Part shown: positions 2,612 through 25,180 of the stretch, piece after piece
Layout of the letters: each line of letters opens with the position of its first letter
Position numbering within the stretch: position 1 is the stretch's first letter
IMG/VR virus record: IMGVR_UViG_3300005532_000036
Location: 1-27,319 of that record
Source: a virus
Length of the DNA: 27,319 bases
Strand: one strand, 5' to 3'
The notes under the pieces: model-generated
Databases searched by the model: none
Seen by the model: only the letters and a program-made list of their open reading frames with translations
Told to the model about the DNA's origin: nothing
Translations under genes and position numbers: made by a program

Positions 2612-2746
2612 ATGGAGAGTCGAATCAACTCGCTGGATTTGCCAATGCTTGGGTTTCTGATCGGTGTCGGGGCCGGTATCGCCGTCGTGGTTCTGGTTGT
2701 GTGGCTTGCCAAGAAGTACGGCGTCGTATTCCCCGACCTTCACTGA
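2612..2746 (+). CDS. Single-TM small membrane protein
   Basis: This 44-residue ORF has a short polar N-terminus, one strongly hydrophobic segment (about residues 12-35, rich in G, V, I and L) and a KK pair just after it. It starts 8 bases after the terL stop, with a weak purine-rich stretch overlapping that stop as ribosome site. The basic residues after the membrane segment suggest N-out/C-in topology. It precedes a secreted protease, an endolysin and a holin-like protein, so a role in lysis (holin, pinholin or antiholin) is possible, but no family is recognised. It could also be a superinfection-exclusion peptide. Confidence 0.6.
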   Translation: MESRINSLDLPMLGFLIGVGAGIAVVVLVVWLAKKYGVVFPDLH

Positions 2747-2751
2747 AAACA

Positions 2752-2827
2752 GGGGGCCTGCCGGCATTGTCCCTTCCTTCCTGACACATGCGATCTCCCC
2801 ATGTGGCTGGCCGGCCCCCACCCTTTT
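2752..2827 (+). terminator. Possible terminator or attenuator hairpin
   Basis: Arms 2752-2765 and 2806-2819 pair over 13 positions with one mismatch and one G-T pair; the outer seven are all G-C (GGGGGCC with GGCCCCC). ACCC and a short TTTT (2824-2827) follow. The 40-base loop is long and the T tract short, so termination would be partial at best. It lies between the small TM gene and the secreted protease gene and could lower or separate expression of the lysis-type genes. Confidence 0.35.
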
Positions 2828-2840
2828 CCAGGGAAGTGAC

Positions 2841-3581
2841 ATGAAAAGACTGGCCGCCCTTGCGTTCCTCCTGATCTCTCCACCCTCCATCGCTGCCGTT
2901 CCTTCTCCGGTCGTCCAGGCCGTCGAGGCCAACTGGATCGTTGATCGCGGCTGCTCGGGCACGCTGCTCGACAAGGACAAGGGTCTGTTCCTGACCGCCT
3001 ATCATTGCATCCAGTCGTCCTACATCGTCGTGGAGAAAGACGACATCAAATCGGATGGCACGGTCGACCACAAGAAGGTGAGAGTCTCGGTTCCCGGCCG
3101 CGTCTGGAAGATGAATTACCGGGCGATGCTGGAAGTCTCGGAGAAGGCGCTGGTGTATTCGATTGAGAAGTCCGACTGGCGTCTCGATCTCGCCCTTCTC
3201 AAGACCGATCCGGTTCCGAATGGTGTTGCGGTCAAGGTTGCTTGCCAGCCTGCCCAGTTGGGTTCGGATGTCTACGCTGTCGGCAATCCATATGGGATTC
3301 TCGACTCCACGCTCACTGCCGGCACGGTGTCGTCCGTGACGCGCAGCTACAGGGATTTGCATATCGCCGGCGACCTGGGCGACGTGACTGATCCCGGCGA
3401 CCATGGTCTGGTTCAGCATACGGCGACCATCGCACCCGGCAATTCGGGCGGGGCGCTCCTGAATGCGAACGGCGAACTGGTCGGCGTCAACGTGCGCGGT
3501 CTTGCTGGCGTCGTTGCGTTTGCGGTGCCGCTCCAGGATGTGCGCGAGTTTCTCGGGGATGTGATCCCCAAGTGTAAGTGA
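2841..3581 (+). CDS. Secreted trypsin-like serine protease
   Basis: The 246-residue product begins with a typical Sec signal peptide (MKR, then a hydrophobic core, cleavage likely after SIAA near residue 19). The mature part has the S1/trypsin_2 (DegP-type fold) triad: His55 in TAYHC, Asp116 in LDLALLK and Ser202 in PGNSGGAL, with all local context intact. Cysteines near residue 38 and directly after His55 could form the disulfide seen next to the catalytic His in chymotrypsin-like enzymes, which fits export to the periplasm. There is no PDZ domain. AGGGAAG at 2830-2836 sets the ATG at 2841; a longer in-frame extension upstream lacks a site and would hide the signal peptide. Its stop overlaps the endolysin start. 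Such a protease is unusual in a phage late operon. It may act on envelope proteins during lysis or on surface receptors; the substrate is unknown. Confidence 0.88.
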   Translation: MKRLAALAFLLISPPSIAAVPSPVVQAVEANWIVDRGCSGTLLDKDKGLFLTAYHCIQSSYIVVEKDDIKSDGTVDHKKVRVSVPGRVWKMNYRAMLEVSEKALVYSIEKSDWRLDLALLKTDPVPNGVAVKVACQPAQLGSDVYAVGNPYGILDSTLTAGTVSSVTRSYRDLHIAGDLGDVTDPGDHGLVQHTATIAPGNSGGALLNANGELVGVNVRGLAGVVAFAVPLQDVREFLGDVIPKCK

Positions 3582-10988: not shown

Positions 10989-12134
10989 ATGATTACTGTC
11001 TCCGCTTTCACAACTCCCGAAGATATTGCGAATCGTGCATTACAGCACGTGGGAGCGGACCATAAGATTGTCAGCCTGCTGAATGACGGCACCAAGCCGC
11101 AGCGGGAAATTCTCAGCGTCTACTCCAAACTCCGGCAGGCAGAATTGCGTCGGGCTGCATGGCAGTTCGCAATTCGCTACGCTGTTTTGCGTCCCATCGA
11201 CGTGACAACTTATCAGTGGACGCCACCCGCCTGGGCGAACAACGTGACCTACCGTGTTGGAGCCGTGGTCAGTTACGACGATGGCTACGGGCTGCGCTAC
11301 TGGCAAAATCAGATTCCGGCAAACTTGAACAACGTACCGGGAAGTGGTACGGCGTGGAGAAGCTATGCGGGCACTCTCTTTGCAGTCCCTTACGACAGCA
11401 GTGAAGCATATTTTACCGGTGATCTTGTTTATGTGGCTGGCACTGGTGGCTCGGCCCAAGTCTACCTTTCGACGCAGCAAATCAATAAGAACAGTCCCTC
11501 CACGCCGCAACTCTGGAATTCTACTCAAACCTACGAGAAGGAAGACATTGTAACGGATGGCGTAAATACGTATGTCAGCCTGATTGACTTTAACCTCAAT
11601 AACACACCTGCTACGTCGCCATCCGCATGGGCAATCACATCCCTGGCTCTCGGCCCTGCTTGGGTTCTGCTTGGCGGAACGTTGACGCGGTATGAGCTTC
11701 TCTACCCGATGACCGCCGGGCCGGCCAGCCAGACCATCACCCGCAATGTCTACCCGCTGCCCTATGGGTTCCTCCGCATGGCGCGGCAGGAACCCAAATC
11801 CGGCAGCACGTCGATCTTCGGAGCGCCGACCAATCGGGCTTATGATGATTGGCTAATCGAGAGCGGGATGCTTGTGACTCGGGATAGTGAGCCGATCATC
11901 CTTCGTTTCGTGGCTGACGAACAGAACGTCAGCTATATGGACCCCATGTTCTGTGAAGGCTTGGCGTGCCGCATCGCCATGGAGATTGTGGAGGCACTGA
12001 CGCAATCGACCGAGAAGGCGCGGGAGACTTCGGCTTCCTACACGGTCTTCATGCGTGAAGCTCGATTGGTCAACGCAATCGAGGAGGGTGCCGACGAACC
12101 TGCCATGGATGACTGGATACAGACGCGCATCTAA
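10989..12134 (+). CDS. Tail tubular protein A-like with three inserted carbohydrate-binding-like modules
   Basis: The 381-residue protein resembles T7 gp11-type tail tube/adaptor proteins at both ends: an N-terminal EDIANRALQHVGA... and ELRRAAWQFAIRYAVLRP helix (1-72) and a C-terminal PAWVLLGG...YPLPYGFLRMAR and CEGLACRIAMEIVEALTQS part (about 224-381). Between them (about 80-222) are three repeats with the pattern W...TY..GD.V.Y.G..Y.....N..N.P....W (near 80-128, 131-178 and 174-220), resembling CBM5/12 chitin-binding-type modules. T7 gp11 is about half this length, and the extra length is these modules. The protein would form the ring between portal and nozzle. It overlaps the next gene by one base (TAATG). 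Confidence 0.82.
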   Translation: MITVSAFTTPEDIANRALQHVGADHKIVSLLNDGTKPQREILSVYSKLRQAELRRAAWQFAIRYAVLRPIDVTTYQWTPPAWANNVTYRVGAVVSYDDGYGLRYWQNQIPANLNNVPGSGTAWRSYAGTLFAVPYDSSEAYFTGDLVYVAGTGGSAQVYLSTQQINKNSPSTPQLWNSTQTYEKEDIVTDGVNTYVSLIDFNLNNTPATSPSAWAITSLALGPAWVLLGGTLTRYELLYPMTAGPASQTITRNVYPLPYGFLRMARQEPKSGSTSIFGAPTNRAYDDWLIESGMLVTRDSEPIILRFVADEQNVSYMDPMFCEGLACRIAMEIVEALTQSTEKARETSASYTVFMREARLVNAIEEGADEPAMDDWIQTRI

Positions 12135-15100
12135 TGCCTAACGTTACGTATCAACAGACGAACTTCCTGGGCGGCGAGTGGTCTCCTTTCTTCCAGGGGC
12201 GCACCGACCACCCTCGATATCGCACCGCGATGAACCTCTCGCGGAACGGTTTTCCTATGGAGGAGGGCGCGTGGGTGCGCCGTCCCGGAACGCGGCTGAT
12301 TGCTCCGACCGCCGGCGGCAAACCAGCCAAGTTGCTCCCCATTCACTTCACAAACTCGGCTCCATATGTTGCTGAATTTACGGACGGCTATGTCCGGTTC
12401 TACTATCAGAGTCGACCTGTTGCACGCGCAGAATTCGTTGCCGTCCTCGGCATAAGTACGGATAATCCGGCAGTACTTACGCTTCTCGTCCCTATGCCGT
12501 GGGCTCAGGGGGATGAGATCGGTTTCTTCTTCGTTGCTGCCGACATCTCTATGGCGCAGCAATTGCGCCAGCGGATTTTCAAAGTAACGCCGGTTGCGGA
12601 GACATATGCGTCATGGTCTTCATCTATCACCTACAACACGAACTCCTTGGTTACCTACAACAGCCGCAATTACATCAGCCTTCAGGATAACAACACGAAC
12701 CATCAACCTGACGTCAGCCCAACGTGGTGGTCTGACGTCACGTCCGAGACGCGGAAGTTTCAACTCTTTGACGCCGTGACCGGTGCTGCCGTTGATGGCA
12801 GCCAGTTGGTGCTGCCTCCGGCGCTCGCTATCTCGGTTTATGCTATGCGGGGGTTGAAGCTCCAGACCCCCTATACTGCCGGCTCGTGGGAGACGCTGCG
12901 TATCGTCCAGAATAAGGATGTCGCTATTCTTATGAATGGCGTGCACATTCCGCAGCTTCTTGTAATCACCCCTAACCCCGGTTCGCCGATTGCGGCGACT
13001 GCTGTTCTGAAGCCGGTTCGCTTTCTTGATGGTCCATATCTTGACCCCGTTGCCAATTCGGTTGCTGACGTTTCCGGCACGTCCGGTATTGTGACAATTA
13101 CGTGTCACTTCCAGGATTGGAATAGCGCCAACACATATGCTGCCGGTGATTATGTTCGTTTCGGAACGAACGCGTATCGGTCGCTTGCCGGAGCCAACAC
13201 TAACAATCAGCCGGATATCAGTCCAACATGGTGGGTCCAGGTCGATCCGGGCTATGCCGTGACCGGTCCCAATAACCAACAGTACGTCGGTTTCCAATCG
13301 ACGGATGTTGGCCGTCTCATACGGTTGTTCAGCGAGCCTCCGGACTATAATCCCGGCACCAACTACAGTGCCGGCACGACGGTCAAGTACAACGGGTTGT
13401 ACTACACGACGAACGTTCCGGTTTCCAACGTTCAGCCTGATCTTGATCCGGTCAAATGGGCGATCAACCCTAGTGGAGCCACATATACGTGGGCTCAGAT
13501 AACCCAAGTCATCAACTCGAACACAGTTCAGGCGCAGATTATGGGCCCGCCTATCCAGTGGCCGGGCGTAACGGTGCGTCTGTGGAGACTTGGGGTCTAC
13601 AGCGATACGACAGGATGGCCTACGTGCGGCATCTTCTCTGAGGGCCGCTTCTGGTTCGGCGGCGCCCAGTCGAACCGTTTCGACGCGTCTTATGTCGACG
13701 GTGTTGATCTGGATGGCAACATCAACATGGCACCTACCATGCAGGATGGTACGGTGACCGACGCCAACGGATTTGGTTTTACCATTGAAAGCGAGGAGCA
13801 GAACCCCATCCGCTGGATGGCTGCCGACCCTAAAGGTATTCTGGTCGGAACCGATGGCGGCGAGTTCTTGATCTTTGCGTCTCAGAATAATGATGCATTC
13901 ACGCCGACTACAACTGAAGTTCGTCTGGTCACGAAATACAGATGCGCCGACGCTCCGCCTGTACGCACAGGCATTGCGCTTCTGTTCATTCAGAAGTTCA
14001 AGCGGCGTATCATGGAGTTCCTGGCGGATATCTTCACCGGTCGGTTCGTTGCGCCCCACCTGACCGAGGCTGCGAAGCACCTAACGGCCGATGGTATAGA
14101 GGAAATATGGTATCAGGAGGAGTTGGCCCCCGTCGTCTGGTTCCGAACAGGCGCCGGTGATCTTAACGGCTGCACCTACCGCCGCACGTCAACATACATT
14201 CAGGATACGCCCGCTTTCGCCGGCTTCCATCGGCATGATCTAGGCCATGGGCGTACGATCACCAGCATCACGACCGGTCCCAGTGGTAACGGCGCGCTGG
14301 ATGCTTTGTTCATGGTTACCACCGACGGCACCACGAACTGGGTCGAGCAGATGACGCAAATGTTCGACGAGGATGACAACATCCTGGATGCGTGGTTTGT
14401 GGATGGAGGCATTGTCCCCGATCAGTACGGCGAGGACACCGTTAACGGGGTTCAAGGCATACGCTTTACTGGGCTATGGTATCTCGCCGGCAAGACGGTT
14501 TCGGTCTTTGCTGCCGGACTTGATGTTGGTGATTTCACCGTTGACGCGAACGGTACGGTGTTCGTACCGTACGGAAGCGGCGTCGCCCCACCCGTTCTCA
14601 ACTACTCGCAGCCTGGGGCTGGCGCATGGGCATTCACGCGTAACTACGTACAGACGCTTGCCAACAGCGGGTTCGTTCCGCGAAACGGTCCCGTCGGCGC
14701 CAATACAACCGGAACTGTCACCGTTACGACAAATCCTAATCCTAACCCCAATGGGTCTACGTCAAAAATTCAGTTGTTGAATTTCACGACGACACCTTCA
14801 TTGGCGTTTTCTGCGCTTGACTGGTCGACGGGATATCTGTTCGCAGCAGATCAAGCATCACCACTTCACAACATAATCCGCCTTAACATTAATACTGGCG
14901 CACAGGTTGACGTAACTAACGTTCCTACGCTTACTGGAGTTACTGGAGCCCAGTTCGATACGGCAGCGGCCGTGGACCGACAGGGGCATCTCTATTTTGG
15001 AATTAACCCAGGCAATTACGCTCAATTGGTGAAAGTTAATGAAGCTGATATGTCTCTTGGTTTTGTGTACGGAACGGGTGGCTCATTTGGACCGCCTAAT

Positions 15101-17032
15101 ACACCGGGAATTGCATCGCCAAGTTTGATGGCTGCTCCGACGGCCAATTCGCCGTGGATTATTTCAATCTCCAGCGTTGGAGCTATTACTTTTAATTCCG
15201 GTACGGATGGACATTTTGTGGCTGGCAACGCCAGCAACGATCCGAACTTTGAAGGGGTGAACGGTACTCCATGGAGTTTGCGACATATCAACTGGATGCA
15301 AAGTGGTTCGCCTACGTATGGGAATAATGTGGCTTCAACGTATGTCGTGACCACAGACAACCAACCATCGGTTAATAAAGAGCTATACTTCATTGGTGTT
15401 GCGGACGGTGTTCCGACAGAAGAACAAAATAATGTCAACCAAGGTAGTCTCGGAAAGAAGGGGAAGGGAAAGAAGGGTGCCCAACCCGGTGGTGTCACGC
15501 ATATTCCGTCGACCTCAACGCCGCTTACGTACTTCTCGAAGATTGCGAATATTTCTCATACAGATGTCGATACGAGATGGACCAACAGCGAGGTTGGCTC
15601 TTGTATCGTCGATTGGCAGGATAATAGTGTCCTGACGTTCTTTACGAATGATTTTACCAATGCGTATGCGACGTCGGATACTCAATGGAGCGCAACGACA
15701 GTTTATAGATTTGACCCGACGCAATACCCGACGTGGGCTGCGAACGTCACTTATCCGGCCGGCAGCCTTATTCGTGGGGCTACGCTGACTAATAACAAGG
15801 CTGTTCTTTATCGCAGCAAAGTGCAGACCTCTCAAAATCCAGAGGATCAATCGCAGACTGATTGGGTTATTGCCGGACATGCATTCTTGTTGTGGAGTGC
15901 GACGCAGACCTATGCAGCTAATGATTACGTTCTGTACAACAATGTGCTTTTCCAGAATACCCAAAACGGTACAGTTGGTGTGAACCCGCCAAATTCTCCG
16001 TGGGTCGCCGTCACAACTTTCACGACTGGAGTTGTGCGCGAACGCACTACCGTGTCTCGATGGTGGGACTCTGTGGCTATAAACAACCTCGGACACGACC
16101 CTGCTGACAACATCACTAACAACCTGCCGTTCCCACAGGTCGGAACATACTGGCAGCGCATACCATCAAACTATCTGGCTTCATATGACACTGGAAAGTT
16201 TTCTCGTAACAACAACACAACTTTCCATCTCAAATGGTTTGTGCCGCTACCAGACAACATTAATTCGGCATTTTTAACTGCTGGCGGGCCGAAGTTTACG
16301 TTCGTTAAGGGTGGGCTTTTGGCAATACCGATCCTGTCGCCGCCGGCCACTAAAAATACCACATTCATTTTGGTTGACACGACAACTGGCCGCTGGTTTG
16401 CTGGAGACGTTCCAGGTGTCTCATATTCTGGCGGGTTTGACTGGGATGACCAGTCGCAGAGCATAGTTCTGTACAGTTGCAGTTATGATCCGACGGTGCC
16501 CGGCGCGCCGGTTGGATTGAACGGAACTGTTGCTTTCTCCAACCAGCCGGCTCGTTTGTACCTCGGCAACTTGCAACCGAATGGGTCTTATTCATCTACG
16601 CTGCAACAGCAGCCTTCGACCTACACGTTCACAATTGTACAGACGCAGGCGCCAACGGTCGCGATCCCCTGCGCTATAGGCTACTCGTACCAGAGCCAGG
16701 GGCAGATACTTCGACAGGTTGCTCCGCCAGATAGCGGCGCTGCCAATGGCCCGGCTTTCGGTAAGATCAGGCGAGCGCACCGCTACATGGCGTTGCTGCG
16801 GAATGTTCTTGACATATCCTTCGGCACAAGCTTCTCCGCCATGATCCCGGCGAAGCTCACGGATTTCAACACCGGTCTACAACCGCAACCTACAGCCCCG
16901 TATAGCGGTATCTGGAGGGATGCACTTGAAGCTCCATATGACTTTGAGTGCGAGCTGGGCTGGCAGATTGTTCGGCCGTATCCGGCTTCGGTTGTGTCGG
17001 TCGGCGTCGCTATCAGGTCGCAAGATGTCTAA
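12134..17032 (+). CDS. Giant tail tubular protein B-like (nozzle) with five carbohydrate-binding-like modules
   Basis: The 1632-residue protein is about twice T7 gp12 length. The N-terminus (NFLGGEWSPFFQGRTDHPRY, then RNGF and a VRRPGTRLI phrase) and the C-terminus (RAHRYMALLRNVLDISFGTS and FECELGWQIVRPYP) fit podovirus nozzle proteins. CBM5/12-like modules lie near residues 158-205, 327-372, 403-445, 1198-1249 and 1252-1300; the first two both carry NT(N)xQPDxSPTWW. Residues about 860-1100 look like beta-propeller repeats, followed by a lysine-glycine linker (1108-1115). The coding region from about 14750 to 16600 is clearly more A/T-rich than its surroundings, so the module-bearing half is likely acquired. 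I infer a nozzle that also binds surface polysaccharide. Confidence 0.85.
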   Translation: MPNVTYQQTNFLGGEWSPFFQGRTDHPRYRTAMNLSRNGFPMEEGAWVRRPGTRLIAPTAGGKPAKLLPIHFTNSAPYVAEFTDGYVRFYYQSRPVARAEFVAVLGISTDNPAVLTLLVPMPWAQGDEIGFFFVAADISMAQQLRQRIFKVTPVAETYASWSSSITYNTNSLVTYNSRNYISLQDNNTNHQPDVSPTWWSDVTSETRKFQLFDAVTGAAVDGSQLVLPPALAISVYAMRGLKLQTPYTAGSWETLRIVQNKDVAILMNGVHIPQLLVITPNPGSPIAATAVLKPVRFLDGPYLDPVANSVADVSGTSGIVTITCHFQDWNSANTYAAGDYVRFGTNAYRSLAGANTNNQPDISPTWWVQVDPGYAVTGPNNQQYVGFQSTDVGRLIRLFSEPPDYNPGTNYSAGTTVKYNGLYYTTNVPVSNVQPDLDPVKWAINPSGATYTWAQITQVINSNTVQAQIMGPPIQWPGVTVRLWRLGVYSDTTGWPTCGIFSEGRFWFGGAQSNRFDASYVDGVDLDGNINMAPTMQDGTVTDANGFGFTIESEEQNPIRWMAADPKGILVGTDGGEFLIFASQNNDAFTPTTTEVRLVTKYRCADAPPVRTGIALLFIQKFKRRIMEFLADIFTGRFVAPHLTEAAKHLTADGIEEIWYQEELAPVVWFRTGAGDLNGCTYRRTSTYIQDTPAFAGFHRHDLGHGRTITSITTGPSGNGALDALFMVTTDGTTNWVEQMTQMFDEDDNILDAWFVDGGIVPDQYGEDTVNGVQGIRFTGLWYLAGKTVSVFAAGLDVGDFTVDANGTVFVPYGSGVAPPVLNYSQPGAGAWAFTRNYVQTLANSGFVPRNGPVGANTTGTVTVTTNPNPNPNGSTSKIQLLNFTTTPSLAFSALDWSTGYLFAADQASPLHNIIRLNINTGAQVDVTNVPTLTGVTGAQFDTAAAVDRQGHLYFGINPGNYAQLVKVNEADMSLGFVYGTGGSFGPPNTPGIASPSLMAAPTANSPWIISISSVGAITFNSGTDGHFVAGNASNDPNFEGVNGTPWSLRHINWMQSGSPTYGNNVASTYVVTTDNQPSVNKELYFIGVADGVPTEEQNNVNQGSLGKKGKGKKGAQPGGVTHIPSTSTPLTYFSKIANISHTDVDTRWTNSEVGSCIVDWQDNSVLTFFTNDFTNAYATSDTQWSATTVYRFDPTQYPTWAANVTYPAGSLIRGATLTNNKAVLYRSKVQTSQNPEDQSQTDWVIAGHAFLLWSATQTYAANDYVLYNNVLFQNTQNGTVGVNPPNSPWVAVTTFTTGVVRERTTVSRWWDSVAINNLGHDPADNITNNLPFPQVGTYWQRIPSNYLASYDTGKFSRNNNTTFHLKWFVPLPDNINSAFLTAGGPKFTFVKGGLLAIPILSPPATKNTTFILVDTTTGRWFAGDVPGVSYSGGFDWDDQSQSIVLYSCSYDPTVPGAPVGLNGTVAFSNQPARLYLGNLQPNGSYSSTLQQQPSTYTFTIVQTQAPTVAIPCAIGYSYQSQGQILRQVAPPDSGAANGPAFGKIRRAHRYMALLRNVLDISFGTSFSAMIPAKLTDFNTGLQPQPTAPYSGIWRDALEAPYDFECELGWQIVRPYPASVVSVGVAIRSQDV

Positions 17033-23723: not shown

Positions 23724-24204
23724 CATCCGCGTTCTTGGGATTCGCAAGCCGATCCCGAGCGGCTACGTCGTGGGCCGCAGCAGTCAGGGAACCGGCGATG
23801 CGGAGTTGATCTCCATCAAATCGCTGGCAACGGCGGTCAAGCAGACGGCCGTTCTGTCGCAACAGCAATCCTACGATCTCGCCTGCTTCCTGCCCGGCCA
23901 GCCGGCCCCGAGCCAGACCGTCATGCGCGTCGTAGCTGTCCGGTCTTTCCTCCTGCCAGCGAACCTCCCATTGTCCGAGGCATTCGCTAATACGGCGCCA
24001 TCCGGTGGCTCAGCAGTCTACAACCTCGCCAAGAACGGCACGAATTTCGGAACGCTGACGTTTGCCAGCGGCAGCCAGCAAGGCGTCTTTGCTTCTGGAA
24101 GCGACACATCCTTTGCTGCTGGCGATACGCTGAGCGTCGTCAGCACCGCCACCATGAACGGCATTGCCGACGTGTCCATCACGTTCGCATGCACGAAACA
24201 GTGA
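23701..24204 (+). CDS. Tail fibre-type beta protein
   Basis: The 167-residue protein starts at GTG 23701, with GAGGA at 23688-23692 giving a good spacing; a longer frame from 23662 lies within the previous gene. The N-terminal half has IRVLGIRKPIPSGYVVGRSS and GDAELISIKSLA, phrases common in the attachment part of phage tail fibres. The second half is beta-type, with FASGSQQGVFASGSDTSF and a final ADVSITFACTK, like domains repeated in phage receptor-binding proteins. It overlaps the previous gene by 23 bases. It may connect the tail with the lectin-like protein that follows. Confidence 0.7.
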   Translation: MPRVQNPNIRVLGIRKPIPSGYVVGRSSQGTGDAELISIKSLATAVKQTAVLSQQQSYDLACFLPGQPAPSQTVMRVVAVRSFLLPANLPLSEAFANTAPSGGSAVYNLAKNGTNFGTLTFASGSQQGVFASGSDTSFAAGDTLSVVSTATMNGIADVSITFACTKQ

Positions 24205-24211
24205 GGCAGAT

Positions 24212-25180
24212 ATGGCTTTAGTTTTCATTGACGGATTCGACGGGTATGGCTCGTCGGTTCCCATTTCCTCAAAATGGCCGACACCGCCGGGGGTATCGCA
24301 GTTTCAAACAGGACGTTTTGGTGGTCAATCCCTTTCCATGTCGGTGCAAAGTGGAATTAATCTTACTTCCGGTACAGGGTGGGCTGTTGGAGTTGCTGTC
24401 AAACTCAACGGGACAATTAGCACCACCGCTCAATTAATTTCACTCAGAAATGGCACGACCCTTGTCGGTGTGATCGGTTTCAACTCTCTCAATCAGATTC
24501 TCGCTGCCACTACCTCATTAAGTTCACCATATGCTTCATCCAGCCAAAGCATCGCACAAAATGCGTGGAATTATATTGAATGGGTTGTAAACCTTGCATC
24601 GACAGGCGGAACGAGCCAAGTTTTCCTCAACGGCCAGCAAATAATCAATTTTACTGGTAATACCGGTAGTGGTGCAATTAATAACCTTCTGCTTGGAAAT
24701 TCTAACTCCGTCAGCTTCAATTTTGATGATTTCTACGTTTCATCTGGCGCAACCAGAATTGGCGAAGCTCGGGTCGAAACGCTCGCCCCGGCTTCCAACG
24801 ATGCTGTCCAATGGACGCCAAATGGTAACGCGAACAACTTCGGGTGTGTGAACGAATTGCCGTGGAACGGCGACACCACCTACATATCGTCCAGTACGCC
24901 TGGACAACAGGATACCTTCAACATCAACGCGCTGTCTTCGACACCGCTGAATATCTTTGCCGTGCAGGTGACATACGCCGCCCGCAAGGATGACGCGAAT
25001 ACTCGAACGATTGCCGGCGTTCTGAAAAGCGGTGCAGCGTCCGTCGTTGGCGCCAACAACAACCTTGCATCCACATATCAAGTCTTCTCCGACATCTACG
25101 CCAACGATCCGAATACATCGGCACCATGGTCGGCAGCCGCCGTCAACGCAGCCAAGATCGGCGTTCGTGAGGTGGTCTGA
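24212..25180 (+). CDS. LamG/concanavalin-like tail receptor protein
   Basis: The 322-residue protein starts with FIDGFDGYGS and has the jelly-roll pattern of concanavalin A/LamG-like phage proteins: WAVGVAVKLNG, a central WNYIEWVVNLA strand (about 118-128) with QVFLNGQQI, and FDDFYVSSG near residue 170. The C-terminal third (AVQWTPNGNANNFGCVNELPW to the end) is a recurrent companion domain in tail proteins. It probably binds surface sugars or protein at the tail tip. GAGG at 24203-24206 precedes ATG 24212. The first two-thirds are A/T-rich compared with neighbours, suggesting exchange. Stop and next start overlap (TGATG). Confidence 0.75.
   Translation: MALVFIDGFDGYGSSVPISSKWPTPPGVSQFQTGRFGGQSLSMSVQSGINLTSGTGWAVGVAVKLNGTISTTAQLISLRNGTTLVGVIGFNSLNQILAATTSLSSPYASSSQSIAQNAWNYIEWVVNLASTGGTSQVFLNGQQIINFTGNTGSGAINNLLLGNSNSVSFNFDDFYVSSGATRIGEARVETLAPASNDAVQWTPNGNANNFGCVNELPWNGDTTYISSSTPGQQDTFNINALSSTPLNIFAVQVTYAARKDDANTRTIAGVLKSGAASVVGANNNLASTYQVFSDIYANDPNTSAPWSAAAVNAAKIGVREVV

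Follow-up and report, generated by a model that had tools for sequence, protein, structure and literature searches.

IMG/VR record IMGVR_UViG_3300005532_000036 is a 27,319-base record of an uncultivated virus, and the window analyzed here is that whole stretch. It carries two neighboring genes for the ring proteins of a short tail, the adaptor and the nozzle of podophages. Both proteins bear small modules with the sequence pattern of carbohydrate-binding modules of the CBM5/12 type, three in the adaptor and six in the nozzle. The two genes are as follows.

10989-12134, + strand: adaptor (tail tubular protein A, T7 gp11-like), 381 residues; phrog_394, E value 7.9e-32; core at residues ~10-72 and ~246-381
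12134-17032, + strand: nozzle (tail tubular protein B, T7 gp12-like), 1632 residues; phrog_376, E value 1.4e-77

Head genes lie upstream of the pair and genes for internal virion proteins lie downstream, with the adaptor gene located between the capsid and nozzle genes. The closest solved relatives by sequence are both from phage Carin1: the connector 8ck1_E for the adaptor and the nozzle 8ck1_A for the 1632-residue protein. Profile, gene order, and fold identify the first protein as a podophage adaptor, and the phrog_376 profile and fold identify the second as a podophage nozzle. A preliminary description of this DNA had called both of them tail tube proteins, and the PHROG profiles, the likeness to Carin1, and the predicted folds agree with that assignment.

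Nine CBM5/12-type modules in the adaptor and nozzle

Modules were scored with a profile built from other viruses only, from which all window modules had been removed, and each protein was shuffled 500 times as a control (1,000 shuffles in total). All nine window modules scored between 11.1 and 51.3 bits, compared with 8.3 bits for the best of the shuffled sequences. Scores in the list below are those of this profile unless stated otherwise.

A1, 11232-11366, + strand: adaptor residues ~82-126; 32.6 bits
A2, 11391-11510, + strand: adaptor residues ~135-174; 20.0 bits; YF.G.LVY at the equivalent slot of loci L025, L035, and L036
A3, 11514-11636, + strand: adaptor residues ~176-216; 51.3 bits; fold match to chitinase C and B domains
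N1, 12614-12739, + strand: nozzle residues ~161-202; 44.2 bits
N2, 13118-13243, + strand: nozzle residues ~329-370; 44.0 bits
N3, 13346-13468, + strand: nozzle residues ~405-445; 25.5 bits
N4, 15734-15874, + strand: nozzle residues ~1201-1247, in a large C-terminal insertion; 13.6 bits
N5, 15893-16012, + strand: nozzle residues ~1254-1293; 28.6 bits; best single match to PF02839 in the window (24 bits)
N6, 16001-16156, + strand: nozzle residues ~1290-1341; 11.1 bits; pattern in the letters judged by eye

N4 and N6 are the weakest modules overall, and A2 is the least regular in the adaptor. N4 reaches 50.5 bits with a window-seeded profile, the seeds of which include N4 itself. Neighboring beads can have a tryptophan in common: one Trp is both the last of A2 and the first of A3, and N6 overlaps the end of N5 such that a single Trp likewise closes the N5 pattern and opens that of N6. 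The Pfam family CBM_5_12 (PF02839) matched the nozzle at 37.5 bits over four stretches, above its curated cut-off of 26.2, while the adaptor scored 18.6 bits, below that cut-off, and no window module reached it alone. A profile scan of 13,139 open reading frames (ORFs) from all loci gave 190 proteins at E values below 1e-3, a set that includes the sequences used to train the profile, compared with 0 reversed and 0 shuffled sequences. A chance or low-complexity match was rejected, as all shuffled and reversed controls scored lower. The CBM5/12-type character proposed in the preliminary description is thus borne out at the sequence level and, in A3, by the fold of the model as well. Its count of three adaptor and five nozzle modules (eight) stands for the adaptor; with N6 the nozzle has six and the total is nine.

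Predicted structures combine podophage cores with inserted modules

The AlphaFold model of the adaptor, based on 65 sequences, had a mean predicted local distance difference test score (pLDDT) of 92.9 and a predicted template modeling score of 0.87. Its core matched 8ck1_E (Z 16.6, root mean square deviation [rmsd] 4.1, 188 residues), and further podophage adaptors also matched. Residues 172 to 219 of the model, which correspond to A3, matched the chitinase C binding domain (Z 8.0, rmsd 1.8, 46 residues) and the tail fiber of cyanophage A-1(L) (Z 8.0); matches to chitinase B had Z scores of 7.4 to 7.6 over 46 residues, in a range (under 8) that may reflect chance according to the tool. In this confident model the adaptor is predicted to be a podophage core with three inserted modules, both folds being present in one chain. 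Foldseek paired the adaptor model with chitin deacetylases carrying such domains and with a 741-residue protein of Vibrio phage VP2 (Q6RCF4) named as immunoglobulin-like (Ig-like). It also matched many viral models; one of them, from an uncultured phage, is a 492-residue "ChiA1_BD domain" protein.

Nozzle residues 1 to 850 were modeled with a mean pLDDT of 88.3, and the core matched 8ck1_A (Z 34.0, rmsd 3.8, 566 residues). N2 and N3 were modeled confidently (pLDDT of ~97 for N2), and N1 fell below a pLDDT of 50.

The modules occupy defined insertion sites

Alignment of the adaptor core to nine named homologues revealed a single insertion, located between the first helical part and a PAW motif. 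The other adaptors in the alignment are 190 to 276 residues long, and the undecorated ones of 190 to 227 residues lack precisely the module stretch. The longest, the 276-residue adaptor of phage ct3Et533 (L012:1611-2498), carries an unrelated insert of ~75 residues at the site of the CBM-type string, which suggests that this site tolerates cargo. The adaptor of MW202898.1 (L007:5427-5999) is annotated as "major capsid protein," a label that is probably wrong.

In the nozzle, unsplit annotated homologues have 668 to 910 residues, compared with 1632 here. When relatives were mapped onto the window nozzle, the N1 slot was empty in all 50, the N2 slot was occupied in 24 of the 50, and the N3 slot was the most widespread, being occupied in 45 of 50 rows; the undecorated outgroup L198 is one of the rows mapped. 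N4 to N6 lie within the large C-terminal insertion, a stretch of ~750 residues (~850-1600) that is absent from the annotated homologues. Three distant nozzles (L009:2450-4804, L013:2483-4726, and L014:2489-4693) have at the place of N3 a stretch of similar rhythm, W...G..v...d...Y.a...P.h..G, which scores not above 10 bits with the module profile. By this likeness, N3 may be an ancient part of the nozzle. L036:3082-7032 contains a weak E1_FCCH-like domain (PF16190, E value 0.0017), and a similar-looking stretch, ITGAT..NP..ITA..HGYS.GDE, occurs near the N1 region of the pelagiphage nozzles L008 and L016.

Decoration of the ring proteins is a lineage trait

Single-sequence searches with the locus found one near-identical contig only. 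A query made of two window modules, blind to the protein carrying them, recovered 21 viral loci. Besides the contig of the window, three of the loci (L025, L035, and L036) have a PHROG-recognized adaptor and nozzle that are both decorated; L032 has the same two-gene layout with proteins lacking a PHROG match and was left out of the counts. These three were chosen for bearing modules, and the nozzle query was derived from module-bearing viruses, with DNA patterns lying outside the modules. Relatives of the nozzle were taken as the best 80 of 106, and another nozzle group, the next, as the best 80 of 591. L001 to L006 and L017 (the window, or a contig identical to it where compared) as well as L119 and L172 (the contigs of L036 and L035, respectively) were removed before counting.

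In 64 relatives an adaptor ORF of 170 residues or more was captured beside the nozzle, and 63 of these adaptors are decorated, with one to seven modules each. The sole "undecorated" adaptor, that of L170, is the back part of a frame-broken gene whose front part (293 residues, three modules) lies in another frame. At least one module is carried by 74 of the 80 relative nozzles, and both proteins are decorated in 62 of 65 loci, the window included. In the next nozzle group, none of 71 adaptors and 11 of the 80 nozzles had a module, and among the named phages that were fetched, none of nine adaptors had one. In 16 of the 80 loci no adaptor ORF of 170 residues adjoins the nozzle. Among 14 of these (all but L183 and L190), taken together with L170 and L182, a module-bearing ORF lies further upstream in seven (L191, L192, L193, L169, L156, L174, and L196), and most of the remaining loci without an adjoining adaptor ORF are contig ends.

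In a tree of 165 nozzles (FastTree, trimmed columns, midpoint rooted), all 59 loci with decorated adaptors fell into one clade of 73 with a support of 1.0, the other 14 members having no scored adaptor; inner nodes near the window had low support (0.28 to 0.54). One contig in the decorated lineage, L197, was binned as Planctomycetota, which says little about the host. Decoration of the ring proteins is a lineage trait of uncultivated short-tailed phages. That it is an oddity of one genome was rejected, given the 63 of 64 decorated adaptors among relatives. A similarity search of the phage collection, as distinct from a module scan, found no isolate with a decorated adaptor, although a divergent one could be missed this way; for the nozzle query the result refers to 12 of 124 records. 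Among the matches listed from the open-access PMC literature, none concerned CBM modules in podophage adaptors or nozzles; papers dealing with CBM5 in viruses from sea slicks and soil gave no lead, and "CBM_5" in the Oenococcus phage literature proved to be a serial number, not a module. Modules of this kind also begin, or are contained in, four phrog_6278 proteins (L020:3591-5186, L021:5926-6828, L024:4348-6819, and L026:5188-6816).

The modules are old, slot bound, and diverge faster than the cores

The preliminary description had proposed that the modules arose by duplication within this locus. Closest relatives were determined for 344 modules, with neighbors more than 80% identical excluded. 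For 335 modules the closest relative was in another virus, and for 9 it was in the same virus, where drawing at random would give ~4.3. On these figures, recent duplication at this site was rejected, and the proposal is not supported as a recent event. Adaptor modules paired with adaptor modules in 189 of 208 cases and nozzle modules with nozzle modules in 123 of 136. Since closest relatives lie elsewhere and pairing mostly stays within the adaptor or within the nozzle, the beads are old and slot bound rather than fresh copies.

Identity among adaptors was 0.35 to 0.40 for the modules, compared with 0.50 for the core; in the nozzle it was 0.33 to 0.39 for the modules (0.33 for N3), compared with 0.44 to 0.48 for the core. 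This faster divergence suggests that mainly buried core residues are held. The residues conserved across the 410 modules are those of the fold (W1, Y7, Y/W21, and W40) and of the turn (G10, N28, and P33). Among modules with a residue at the position, column 7 is Tyr in 98%, column 40 is Trp in 100%, and columns 1 and 21 are aromatic in 100%. Column 28 is Asn in 80% and column 30 is Gly or Asn in 84%; these two columns may only shape the turn.

Possible roles of the modules

We tentatively propose, at close to even probability and as the likeliest of the readings considered, that the modules form a multivalent collar that faces outward and touches the host surface weakly at many points. The position, number, and variability of the modules, together with a precedent in the 936 siphophages, argue for this role. 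In both proteins the modules occupy set positions within cores that are otherwise those of ordinary podophage adaptors and nozzles. Because known complexes have 12 adaptors and 6 nozzles (a stoichiometry taken from the titles of structures solved for other phages, the C12 adaptor 8vb4 and the C6 nozzle 8vbx), about 72 modules (12 × 3 + 6 × 6) would ring the tail of each virion. The module string would face outward, because the insert is too large for the channel. Many weak contacts with the surface coat of the host could then help the particle to stay and orient, while fibers or spikes would provide specific, irreversible binding; how strong the contact is would be set by the number of beads (one to seven in the adaptor) and by the rapid change of their surfaces. 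As for the precedent, two CBM domains of 936 siphophages, which carry them on the tail and neck, attached to host cells when fused to green fluorescent protein (PMC6669499). A bolder version, in which the collar is an adhesion organ of ~70 beads per virion that grips a nonchitin surface glycan through a polar site replacing the aromatic clamp, with evolution adjusting avidity and host range by way of bead number, we regard as rather doubtful.

CBM12 of ChiA1 binds through a different Trp from that of CBM5. In CBM5, chitin is bound by two adjacent exposed aromatics (Y-W or W-W) with the help of a third, and the hydrophobic core is made up of a Tyr and a Trp (PMC8449059). Several observations weigh against a sugar-contacting collar, and two of them concern these residues: of 410 modules, just 2 have the exposed aromatic pair, and likewise just 2 have a Trp anywhere in the binding loop. 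Aromatics of any kind occur in the binding loop of 58 of the 410, and position 37, the nearest to the third CBM5 aromatic when counted from the last Trp, is aromatic in 4%. In the absence of the aromatic clamp, the ligand is probably not chitin bound in the usual CBM5 manner. The preliminary description had suggested that capsular or chitin-like polysaccharide is bound along the tail and had named a conserved aromatic surface as its touchstone, which these counts contradict. Sequence kinship of the modules to the binding domains of ChiA1, ChiC, ChiB, and chitin deacetylase speaks for classical binding of chitin or N-acetylglucosamine polymers; judged from their residues, such binding by these modules is unlikely, and as an account of the whole system we consider it very improbable. 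Another ligand could possibly be bound through polar contacts. The collar is further weakened by the fact that outward exposure is deduced from the size of the insert rather than read from model coordinates and by the case of the A-1(L) neck fiber, whose terminal CBM did not bind the host (PMC10966104).

The remaining points against the collar favor its main rival, a docking role. Under it, the modules, with a fold borrowed from sugar-binding domains, would serve as protein-protein sockets where adaptor and nozzle meet and would seat fibers or spikes there, the ligand being a partner protein. T7-type fibers dock at this junction. Among solved tails, the nearest phage matches to this module fall within or next to anchoring regions, in three other phages: residues 30 to 53 of the Milano spike, inside its tail-binding module (1 to 175) (PMC10811340); residues 29 to 49 of the 7-7-1 long tail fiber, inside its anchoring region (1 to 120) (PMC12796354); and residues 138 to 184 of the A-1(L) tail fiber, which would be the baseplate-wedge-binding joint domain (111 to 215) if the chain is gp33, an identity deduced from its length (PMC10966104). 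The Anabaena injection system gave a further match, in a baseplate protein (7b5h), and the lack of binding aromatics fits a protein partner. Unlike a fixed socket, however, the modules vary in number from one to seven and have no strongly conserved slot (0.33 to 0.40 identity), although fibers may vary too; we consider docking unlikely but a serious contender. It is improbable, in our estimate, that the beads are spacers without any ligand, there only to make the tail stiffer or wider or to protect its joints. Conservation limited to fold residues is consistent with spacers, and the unrelated insert of L012 at the same site, together with the Foldseek pairing with the Ig-like VP2 protein, suggests that any bead may do. 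Yet 63 of 64 adaptors retain CBM5/12-type beads and not other folds, and the same modules are found in tail fibers of unrelated phages.

The proposed collar would act beside fibers rather than in their place. Among six relatives read whole (covered piecewise, with ORFs cut at piece borders dropped), at least three have fiber, spike, or galactose-binding-type candidates: a fiber-like protein with two modules of its own in G001, an F5/8-type-C protein in G002, and a beta-helix spike candidate in G003. Replacement of fibers by the modules was dropped on this evidence, which fits the earlier suggestion that binding is done along the tail "rather than only by fibres." In the window itself, positions 24164-25180 (+ strand) encode a 338-residue phrog_2448 protein (E value 1.7e-42); a relative in L218 (11587-13437, 34.7% identity over 121 residues) has a weak polysaccharide-lyase-like match (PF21340, E value 0.0014) and is a candidate spike or fiber. 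Between the terminase and portal genes, positions 2664-3581 (+ strand) encode a trypsin-like serine peptidase (PF13365, E value 5.8e-22).

Comparison with known systems

Receptor contact of short-tailed phages is usually attributed to fibers and spikes, and here it is the ring proteins that bear tandem modules. Since these modules are lineage wide and no isolate with them was found in the collection searched, host-range prediction from fiber genes alone may miss part of the contact surface. The system is also a test of whether a "CBM" annotation in a virion protein denotes sugar binding or a reused structural bead; with 408 of the 410 modules lacking the chitin clamp, such annotations call for caution.

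The modules resemble CBM5/12 modules (PF02839; ChiA1, ChiC, and ChiB) in sequence pattern, core aromatics, and the predicted fold of A3. They differ in that the exposed pair is found in 2 of 410, the PF02839 cut-off is passed only by the whole nozzle, and they are located in virion ring proteins, not enzymes. The same module, by sequence or fold match, occurs in or beside the anchoring regions of Milano, 7-7-1, and A-1(L), there in a fiber or spike and here in the tail rings. The core folds are like those of other podophage adaptors and nozzles (T7 gp11 and gp12, Carin1 8ck1, and LME-1 9efk), with Z scores of 16.6 and 15.8 for the adaptor and 34.0 and 31.3 for the nozzle, whereas the adaptor is about twice the usual length and the nozzle has 1632 residues instead of 668 to 910. 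Short tails strung with small domains also occur in the phi29-like phage Phanie, whose gp11 has six domains that are Ig-like, not CBM5/12 (PMC11476376), and Vibrio phage VP2, known here as a Foldseek row alone, would be a further case.

CBM decoration of siphophage tails is already known. In the 936 siphophages, as in the present case, structural tail proteins other than the receptor-binding protein (there the tail tube, neck, and Dit) have gained sugar-binding-type domains; those are long-tailed Lactococcus phages with BppA-like domains (PMC6669499), whereas here the adaptor and nozzle of short-tailed phages carry tandem CBM5/12 beads.

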